DNA from: Parcubacteria group bacterium
Lineage (GTDB): Bacteria > Patescibacteriota > Minisyncoccia > JACPHC01
Direction: 5' to 3'
Assembly: GCA_016188775.1 (NCBI GenBank)
Contig: JACPHC010000005.1
Location: forward strand, 1-41,793
DNA length: 41,793 bases
Part shown: positions 3,212 to 6,994 of the stretch, one piece after another
Layout of the letters: each line of letters begins with the position of its first letter
Position numbering within the stretch: position 1 is the stretch's first letter
Translations under genes and position numbers: made by a program
Notes under the pieces: model-generated
Database searches by the model: none
Told to the model about the DNA's origin: nothing
Seen by the model: only the letters and a program-made list of their open reading frames with translations

Positions 3212-3238
3212 GGGTGATATTAAGCAAGTCTAGGTGGG
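3212..3238 (+). other. 5' arm of the pre-23S processing stem
   Basis: gggtgatattaagcaagtctaggtggg is complementary to cccaccttgacttgcttaatatcaccc (6968-6994), 26/27 positions. Confidence 0.85.
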
Positions 3239-3735
3239 TATTTTAAGAGCGTATGGTGGATGCCTTGGCACCAAGAGGCGAAGAAGGACGTGGCGTGACT
3301 GCGATAAGCGCCGGGGAGGTGTCTAGCGACCTTCGATCCGGCGATGTCCGAATGGGGAAACCCAATCTCGCAAACCGAGATTGTCCTTGACGTAAAGTCG
3401 AGGAAGCGAACCCGCTGAAGTGAAACATCTCAGTAAGCGGAGGAAAAGAGAAAGAATTTTATTCCCCCAGTAGCGGCGAGCGAAAAGGGAGAAGCCCAAA
3501 CCCACGCGTGTTTTGTTTTTAACAGGACGCGTTTGGGGGTAGTAAGAAAACAGCGTCCAGGCGCGAGCTTGGAGGGAGTTTAAAAAAATGAAACTTCGTT
3601 AGTCGAATGGCCCTGGAAAGGCCAATCAAAGAGGGTAATAGTCCCGTAGACGAAAACGGTTTCATGTTCCTTGTTGTTTATCTTGAGTAACCCGGGGAAA
3701 GACTGCCCTGGGCGAAGCATCCCTGACTACAGGGA

Positions 3736-3795
<60 letters not shown>

Positions 3796-5861
3796 CAGCC
3801 CGGTGAGGGCGGTGAAATAGTACCTGAAACCATATGCTTACATAGAGCGGGAGCCTTTGACGCAAGTTGAGGGTGACCGCGTGCCTATTGAAGAATGAGC
3901 CAACGACTTTGAATGCATAGCAGTCTAAGTCCTTATAAGGGACGGAGGCAAAGCGAAAGCGAGTGCGAAAAGCGCGCCTGTTCCGCTTTCAGCGGAACAA
4001 ATGCTGTGTGTTTAAGACCCGAAGCCAGGCGAGCTTACCATGGTCAGGACGAAGGTCGCCGAAAGGCGACTGGAGGTCCGAACTCATACGCTGTGCAATA
4101 CGTTGGGATGAACTGTGGTAAGAAGTGAAAAGCTAATCGAGCCTGGGAATAGCTGGTTCTCTCCGAAACAGTTTTAGGACTGGCGTCCTTTATTAATTTC
4201 GCGGGGGTAGAGCACTGGATGGTAATCATTGGGAGAAATCTCGGATAACCAATCAAACTCCGAATACCGTGAATGAGAAGGATAGTTAGACCATGGGGGC
4301 GAAGCTCCATCGGTCAAAAGGGAAACAGCCCAGCCCAAAATTTAAGGTCCCTAAATTAAAGCTAAGTGCAAGCAAGGAAGTGGAATTTCTTAAACATCTA
4401 GGAGGTTGGCTTAGAAGCAGCCATCCTTTAAAGAGTGCGTAACAGCTCACTAGTCGAGAGATTCCGCGCCGAAAATTTATCGGGGCTAAGCTTTATACCG
4501 AAAATTTGGATGAGCGTTCAATACGTTGAGCGCTCGTGGTAGGAGAGCATTCTTTACGCAGCGAAGTTGAGGGCGCGAGCCCCAATGGAGCGTAAGGAAG
4601 AGAGAATGTTGGCATGAGTAACCGCAAGTCCGACGAGAACTCGGACCACCGAAAACCTAAGGTTTCCTTGGCAATGTCAATCATCCAAGGGTTAGTCGGT
4701 CCTAAGGCAATGGCGAAAGCCGCAGCTGATGGACAGCCGGTTAATATTCCGGCACTTCTTTGTTTTTTCAAGAGAATGACGAAAAGTACTAAATCGAGCG
4801 TATTATTGGATTTATGTTTCTTCGCCCGCGAGGGCGCGGGAAAATTATTCCTTCGGGAATGAAATTCGATGAAAATTTTTCCGAGAAAAGTTCTTAAGAG
4901 CTAAAAACAAAGAAACCGTACCGTAAACCGACACAGGTAGGTAAGGCGAGAAGCCTAAGGTGAACAGGTGATTCCTCGTTAAGGAACTCGGCAAAAAAGC
5001 TACCCGTAAGTTCGCAAGATGGGTTCCCAGCATATAACTTGTTATGTGCTGGGCGCAGTTAAAGTGTCTCTAGCGACTGTTTATCAAAAACACAAGTCCC
5101 TGCTAACTCGCAAGAGGATGTATAGGGGCTGACACCTGTCCAGTGTTGGAACGTTAACGGCGAAGGTCTTGGATTTTAAGATTATATCAAAAGATTTAAG
5201 GCTCGAGCCCGAAGCGCCAATGAACGACCGCGATAACTATAATCGTGTTAAAGTAGCGTAACCCCTTGCCAGGTAAGTTCTGGCCCGCATGAAAGGTGTA
5301 ACGACTGGAGAACTGTCTCAACGAGGAGCCTGGTGAAAATGCAATTCCGGTGAAGACGCCGGGTACCTGCGACTAGACGAAAAGACCCCGGGAGCTTTAC
5401 TGTAGCTTGGTATTGGCTTTTTGTTTTGAATGCGTAGCATAGGAGGGAGACTTTGAAGTTCCGTTTTCGGACGGAATGGAGTCGTCAGTGAAATACCTCT
5501 CTTTCAAGGCTTTAAGTCTAACCTTTGACGCCAAACGTCAGAGAGACAGTGCCTGGTGGGCAGTTTAAGTGGGGCACTTTCCTCCCAAAAAGTAATGGAG
5601 GAGTTTATTAAGGTCGGCTAACTCCGGATGGAAATCGGAGTGATAGGGCAAACCCATAAGCCGGCTTAACTGCGAGGCGCGCATGCCGAGCAGGTGCGAA
5701 AGCAGAAGTTAGTGAACCGACCGTACTTCGTAGGAAGGCGGAAGATCATCGGCCAAAAGCTACCCCGGGGATAACAGGCTGGTACCGCCCAAGAGTTCAT
5801 ATCGACGGCGGTGTTCGGCACCTCGATGTCGGCTCCGCGCATCCTGGCGGTGGAGAAGCCG

Positions 5862-5892
<31 letters not shown>

Positions 5893-5979
5893 CGACGCGA
5901 GCTGGGTTCAAACCGTCGTGAGACAGGTTGGACTCCTATCTGTCGCAGGCGTCGATACTTGAGGGGAGCTGCTCCTAGT

Positions 5980-6747
5980 AAGAAATTGCTACTTTCGCCA
6001 GTAATGGCGATTGATAATTCGGCTAATAACGGTGGAATCTTAATAAATTTGGTCTGTTGATAACTATAGTTGTTGCGGTCCAATAATTATAGTACAATTA
6101 ATTGAGGACCAAAGTAATTAATTAAGACAATACCGTGGGAAGTCGATCTAAAATTAATTTAGCATATATTGCTGGTTTTCTTGATGGCGACGGCAGTTTA
6201 ATGATGCAAATTAAGAAACGTAAAGACGGAAATAAATCTGGAAAACGTTTCATGTTGACTATTTGTTTTTATCAAGATTCACGTCATGACAAAACTTTGT
6301 CGTGGATCCGAAATTTACTTGGCATAGGTTATATTTCAAAACGAAATGATGGCATAACTGAACTGCGAATTAACGGATTTAAACAAATAGAAAAAATACT
6401 AAAGAATTTACTGCCATTTATTAAATTTAAGAAAATACAAGCAAATCTTCTTTTCGAATCTTCAAAAATTCTTCAAAAAAAGCATAGTTTAAAAAATACT
6501 GATTTAAGAAAATTGGTAAATAATATTTATCGAATTCAATCAGAAAATTATGCAACGAAGAAAAAGAAAACAAAAGAAGAATTGTTTAAAATTTTAGATT
6601 TGACCCCGTAACGACTGGATTCTTTAAGTAAGACTTTTTACTTAAAGATGAAGATAATATCAATAATTTGATATTATAATACGCCGACCCCCGCTAAAAG
6701 CAGGGTGAAGATATAGTCTACACTTCTAGCGATAGAAGAATTATGTG
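5980..6747 (+). other. Group I intron in 23S rRNA domain VI (sarcin-ricin loop)
   Basis: 5' exon ends ctcctagT, intron ends G before acgagagg; candidate P1 tagT/Gcta with terminal U-G pair; R-like gtaacgactggat and S-like aagatatagtct core motifs; encodes a LAGLIDADG ORF. Confidence 0.88.
6135..6611 (+). CDS. Single-motif LAGLIDADG homing endonuclease encoded in the 23S intron (GTG start)
   Basis: LAYIAGFLDGDGSLMMQI motif, 158 aa, located inside the intron. Confidence 0.9.
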   Translation: MGSRSKINLAYIAGFLDGDGSLMMQIKKRKDGNKSGKRFMLTICFYQDSRHDKTLSWIRNLLGIGYISKRNDGITELRINGFKQIEKILKNLLPFIKFKKIQANLLFESSKILQKKHSLKNTDLRKLVNNIYRIQSENYATKKKKTKEELFKILDLTP

Positions 6748-6967
6748 ACGAGAGGACCGGAGTGGACCAACCTCTGGTGTGCCAGTTGACCCGCCAGGGT
6801 CATTGCTGGGTAGCTATGTTGGGACGGGATAAGCGCTGAAAGCATATAAGCGCGAAGCCCACCTCAAGATCAGGTATCTTAGATTCGTGGAAGATGACCA
6901 CGTTGATAGGCTGCAGGTGTAAGCGTCGTAAGGCGTTTAGCCGAGCAGTACTAATAAATCATTTATG

Positions 6968-6994
6968 CCCACCTTGACTTGCTTAATATCACCC
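6968..6994 (+). other. 3' arm of the pre-23S processing stem
   Basis: Complementary to 3212-3238. Confidence 0.85.

Follow-up and report, generated by a model that had tools for sequence, protein, structure and literature searches.

The interrupted 23S rRNA gene

We analyzed a window of 41,793 nucleotides, contig JACPHC010000005.1 of a Parcubacteria group bacterium, and all positions below refer to it. The window contains a 23S rRNA gene on the plus strand that extends from 3233 to approximately 6975 and has one interruption, between T5979 and A6748, with a 5S gene downstream. The 5' exon (3233-5979), defined with cmscan (RF02541) and by alignment to E. coli rrlB, ends in the equivalent of U2656, and the 3' exon (6748-6975, plus strand, 3' end approximate) starts at the equivalent of A2657. 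In this alignment, CCTAGT ends with rrlB nucleotide 2656 and the first base of the 3' exon falls on 2657, so that the insertion point lies between the equivalents of U2656 and A2657, within the universal AGUACGAGAGGA stretch. Joining 5979 to 6748 gives an uninterrupted loop sequence that is identical to that of E. coli over GCTGCTCCTAGTACGAGAGGACCGGAGTGGAC. An earlier, sequence-only reading of this DNA had described a 768-nt insert after the U2656 equivalent that splits the gene inside the sarcin-ricin loop, and the alignment bears this out (5980-6747, 768 nt). Few RNA segments in any organism are as highly conserved as the sarcin-ricin loop, on which the translational GTPases depend.

The interrupted gene is apparently the only 23S gene of the genome (10 contigs, rated 100% complete), because the 3' exon is present in one copy and neither an intact AGTACGAGAGGA nor an empty site was found in those contigs. 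The exon stem that flanks the intron, H95, stays complementary across the intron in relatives, as expected if H95 pairs in the mature rRNA. Perfectly complementary stretches also flank the 23S gene as a whole, at 3216-3230 and 6976-6990 (GATATTAAGCAAGTC and GACTTGCTTAATATC), and are likely to form a leader-trailer processing stem.

Two further features of the rRNA genes and their surroundings were observed. Directly upstream of the interrupted gene, on the same strand, is a gene for a BipA/TypA-like translational GTPase (959-2884; named from its sequence). Such GTPases contact the sarcin-ricin loop, and the adjacency may be a coincidence. The 16S gene is on another contig (C4:44820-47450, minus strand) and has an insert of about 1 kb near E. 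coli position 794, which gives a weak group I match and includes an ORF with two LAGLIDADG-like motifs. Both the 16S and the 23S rRNA of this organism are thus interrupted, and there is no 16S gene beside the 23S gene.

The insert has the core of a group I intron

Identification of the insert (5980-6747, plus strand) as a group I intron following U2656 is strongly supported by covariation, by the helices P1 and P9.0, by the terminal guanosine (omega-G), and by dozens of relatives at the same site. The Rfam search proposed in the sequence-only reading did return a group I match (RF00028, positions 6577-6739, E = 1.8e-4 in a search of 951 bases), at a score of 26.3 bits that is below the gathering score of 50 bits. 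The intron was thus not called by Rfam at the gathering threshold and was matched below it in evalue mode. The low score is probably owed to the ORF in P6 and to the extra hairpins P7.1 and P7.2.

We aligned the intron with those of 23 relatives at the identical site, found through their endonuclease ORFs, and wrote down 56 base pairs in the helices P1, P2, P3, P4, P5, P6, P6a, P7, P8, P9.0 and P9. One locus (L027) was excluded from this alignment because its 5' side is rearranged. Standard pairs were present in 96.0% of 1343 cells; the figure was 82.9% for shuffles and 36-42% for controls with slid partners. Among the 24 sequences, 32 of the 56 pairs had changes on both sides. The covariation score was 0.411 versus 0.142, and none of 500 shuffles reached it.

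The 5' splice site is defined by P1 (5976-5991), in which the exon sequence UAGU (5976-5979) pairs with the guide GCUA (5988-5991). This 4-bp helix and its U-G pair at the splice site, U5979-G5988, had been noted from the sequence and proved to be invariant and paired in 24 of 24 sequences. The loop of P1 is variable, and in several relatives it carries a small hairpin of its own. P2 (5995-6010) is a hairpin with a GUAA loop. All six of its pairs have compensatory changes; in P2, as in P9, nearly every pair varies and is paired in all rows. A single weak pair, U5987-A6748, could form P10, a helix that is not universal among group I introns.

The core helices P3, P4, P5, P6, P7 and P8 are all kept. 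P3 (6019-6023 with 6683-6687) closes a pseudoknot with P7 and has double changes in four of its five pairs. A first, hand-assigned P3 (GGAATC with GATTCT) was dropped in favor of this one (UCGGC with GCCGA). P4 (6029-6034 with 6131-6136) is paired in 100% of the sequences, and P5 with its variable extension spans 6038-6127 (6038-6044 with 6121-6127; double changes in 5 of 7 pairs, 85% paired). P6 (6137-6139 with 6605-6607) holds the endonuclease ORF in its loop. Beyond it, P6a (6146-6155 with 6590-6599) is formed by the two ends of that ORF and shows compensatory changes, for example ATCAAACAT/ATGTTTGAT in one relative (L007), so that constraints on the protein and on the RNA overlap there. 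The guanosine-binding helix P7 (6613-6616 with 6715-6718, GACU with AGUC) is invariant in 24 of 24 sequences. P1 and P7 are thus uninformative by covariation, yet both fit the rules for group I introns. P8 (6689-6705) was placed from the alignment and from hairpin prediction.

Between P7 and P3, two successive hairpins, P7.1 (6621-6648) and P7.2 (6654-6677), are predicted in the 24 sequences; in a few rows one of the two is longer or has branches. Two such hairpins at this position mark group IA. By these predicted hairpins we class the intron as group IA-type.

The 3' part of the core starts with the joining strand J8/7 and the 3' strand of P7 (AAGAUAUAGUC, 6708-6718), which were placed from the Rfam match and the alignment and include the joining strand AAGAUAU. 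The S-like core motif that had been recognized from the sequence is indeed present here (AAGATATAGTC, 6708-6718). Downstream, P9.0 (6720-6721 with 6745-6746) encloses P9 (6723-6738, GCGA loop). P9.0 has just two base pairs and positions the 3' splice site for ligation of the exons. It was found as AC/GU, GC/GU, AA/UU, GG/CC, AU/AU and GU/AC, was paired in 100% of the sequences, and always lies before the last intron nucleotide, G6747, which is invariant in 24 of 24 sequences. P1, the terminal G and the S motif, each named in the sequence-only reading, are not chance resemblances, because all or almost all of the 24 sequences share them. Together with the compensatory changes in the core, P9.0 and the relatives at the same site, this upholds the group I identity that was proposed there.

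A LAGLIDADG endonuclease ORF in the P6 loop

The P6 loop contains an ORF for a protein of 158 aa, with a GTG start (6135-6611, plus strand), which went unmentioned in the sequence-only reading. It matches the Pfam family LAGLIDADG_1 (PF00961, E = 2.1e-10) as well as I-CreI, I-MsoI and I-CvuI. The predicted protein has a single domain with the LAGLIDADG helix AYIAGFLDGDGS, and its AlphaFold2 model (mean pLDDT 90) had its best Foldseek matches with I-CreI (TM approximately 0.84). D17, D19, Q47 and K99 are invariant in 27 endonuclease sequences; these include the residues that align with the catalytic Asp and with Q47 and K98 of I-CreI.

Pairwise dN/dS of the endonuclease was low (median 0.13, maximum 0.25), which indicates that the protein is, or recently was, under purifying selection. 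Part of the low dN/dS could reflect RNA pairing, since P6 and P6a are built from the two ends of this reading frame. We looked for a visible pseudo-palindrome at the insertion point as a target and rejected the candidate, which matched at 10 of 22 positions, a value reached by 88% of shuffles. The loci L038 and L042 (G137) share the same endonuclease, in which a single in-frame TGA interrupts an otherwise intact frame, and represent either a decayed copy or a lineage in which UGA is recoded.

Patchy distribution among relatives

The sequence-only reading had suggested a survey of this site in other CPR genomes. We searched 380 sampled genomes of the phylum with a model of the 5' junction and found strong matches (66 bits or more) in 22, including the genome analyzed here (~6% of the sampled species). 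Both junctions read as the 2656 site in 21 of the 22 (one of these, G031, through locus L017), and the remaining one (L058) was read by its 3' side alone. An intact AGTACGAGAGGA is missing from all 22 and was found in 255 of the 380 genomes (the pattern has 12 bases, and a few of these matches are due to chance). Matches below ~57 bits were not counted as introns at 2656, and the ones that we checked lay outside 23S or elsewhere within it. Six loci with matches of 44-51 bits (L065-L068, L070 and L071) have no similarity to E. coli 23S; these related introns may lie in 16S, tRNA or other genes.

The intron is both present and absent within each of five genera (g54, g123, g135, g167 and g212). 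Five of the genomes with strong matches have an intron without the endonuclease ORF, of 312 (L048), 359, 360, 447 and 497 nt, and these copies keep the ribozyme. In addition, the intron of L017 (459 nt) has only a remnant of the ORF, and the endonuclease ORF of L039 is frameshifted; both are stages in the usual decay cycle. Patchy presence combined with ORF-less copies is typical of homing and loss.

Endonuclease homologs with 54-75% identity sit at exactly the 2656 site (the 5' side of L027 being the rearranged one), and those with 31-38% identity sit mostly at the 23S site L2593. In the endonuclease tree, the 2656-site sequences form a clade of 40 rows (99/92) that is separate from the L2593 clade of 10 rows (99/87). 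Twenty confirmed loci, 19 with 54-75% identity, came from a single contig scan of limited sensitivity. Within that scan the close homologs were confined to CPR-titled or unnamed bacterial records, and other hosts may exist. One locus (L037; WRHJ01000002.1, 3836-4643) is an intron with an open endonuclease frame in a record titled Candidatus Saccharibacteria. Saccharibacteria are described as almost free of group I introns and homing endonuclease inserts by Tsurumaki et al. 2024 (PMC11270868).

Proposed mechanism and alternative explanations

We propose, with a probability of about 95%, that the insert is a mobile group IA-type intron that carries an I-CreI-like LAGLIDADG gene in P6, has become fixed in the only 23S gene found, and presumably splices and homes. 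This reading draws on the insertion site, the core fold seen by covariation, the intactness of the ORF and the selection on it, the predicted protein fold and the distribution. Catalysis, in vivo or in vitro, would start with an exogenous guanosine bound in P7 that attacks after U5979, presented by P1 in a U-G pair. Once freed, the 5' exon would attack after G6747, positioned by P7 and P9.0, and ligation of the exons would restore the sarcin-ricin loop. At the DNA level, the endonuclease would act as a homodimer that cuts uninterrupted 23S genes at the loop, and repair would copy the intron into them. The patchy distribution would arise as copies lose first the ORF and then the whole intron.

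An insert in 23S need not be spliced. Intervening sequences that are removed without ligation, for example by RNase III, leave a fragmented 23S; they are known in bacterial 23S and have been proposed for some CPR inserts (PMC11270868). We consider this very unlikely here. Compensatory changes have preserved the entire group I core. This includes P9.0, whose selection for setting the 3' splice site would be purposeless if the exons were never joined. The insertion point is also identical in ~40 relatives, and the ribozyme is retained in ORF-less copies. Ribotoxin cleavage of the sarcin-ricin loop inactivates the ribosome, and a break at this loop would be expected to do the same. An artefact of assembly or binning, with the insert absent from the genome or a second, uninterrupted 23S gene present, is a concern because metagenome-assembled genomes are usual in this phylum. 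Its likelihood is close to nil, given that the same junctions occur with divergent sequence in dozens of independent genomes and that this genome has a single 23S 3' exon and no empty site.

The loop broken by the intron is the one at which translational GTPases dock, and no other 23S gene was found. On this account splicing, perhaps with help from the LAGLIDADG protein or slowed under some conditions, might conceivably serve as a checkpoint of quality or activity that silences unfinished 50S subunits; we regard this as speculative and improbable. A regulated switch, in which splicing is held back to time the competence of ribosomes for EF-G and EF-Tu, would draw on the same facts, namely that unspliced RNA is without an intact sarcin-ricin loop and that only one 23S gene was found. 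We consider such a switch extremely improbable. The sporadic distribution, the intron-less close relatives and the loss of the ORF fit a mobile element better than a conserved control device, and the same consequence would follow from any intron in a functional rRNA site. The proposal from the sequence alone that splicing gates ribosome activation is thus true only in the trivial respect that a precursor has to be spliced before it can work, and nothing was found in favor of regulation. Accurate splicing is required of a mobile element in the sarcin-ricin loop, since translation should fail with a loop that is nicked or unspliced.

Comparison with known systems

The sequence-only reading did not count this insertion site among the common ones; it is a recurrent site in CPR that has been catalogued since 2024. 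Tsurumaki et al. 2024 (PMC11270868) list 14 sites at which insertions recur in the 23S genes of CPR. The last of these, 23IS14 (position 2657), is occupied by group I introns that encode mainly LAGLIDADG_1 proteins, and is stated not to have been reported in other bacteria. The present site is 23IS14, an identity that rests on the stated position of 2657 and holds within a one-base counting convention. The gene, the site (allowing for that one nucleotide), the intron group, the LAGLIDADG_1 ORF and the CPR hosts are all the same. As a difference, the main text of PMC11270868 names no sarcin-ricin loop and gives no subgroup. In a literature search for the sarcin-ricin loop together with group I introns, none of the titles and abstracts listed had previously identified this loop as the location of an intron.

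The group IA3 introns at L2593 (algal chloroplasts; CPR; archaea, PMC6125680) resemble the present intron in being group IA and in having P7.1 and P7.2. Their I-CreI/I-MsoI-type endonucleases likewise have a single LAGLIDADG_1 domain and the I-CreI fold, with sequence similarity that is weak but real. They differ in being inserted 63 nt upstream in 23S (2593 rather than 2656), and their CPR endonucleases have 31-38% identity to those of the 2656 site and form the separate clade described above. The I-ShaI intron of CPR 23S also belongs to group I and encodes a LAGLIDADG_1 enzyme with one domain, for which cutting and dimer formation were demonstrated experimentally (PMC11270868). It is at a different site, 23IS7 (the LAGLIDADG_1 sites 23IS6-8 are given as 1917, 1931 and 1952).

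The site and the type of element are thus already catalogued in CPR, and the present intron is a real and good example of them. To this our analysis adds a covariation-supported secondary structure for the 2656 intron, with evidence from P9.0 for the 3' splice site. It also adds a count of occupancy (22 of 380 genomes), the uneven presence inside genera, and introns without the ORF, as short as 312 nt, that would lend themselves to in vitro splicing tests.
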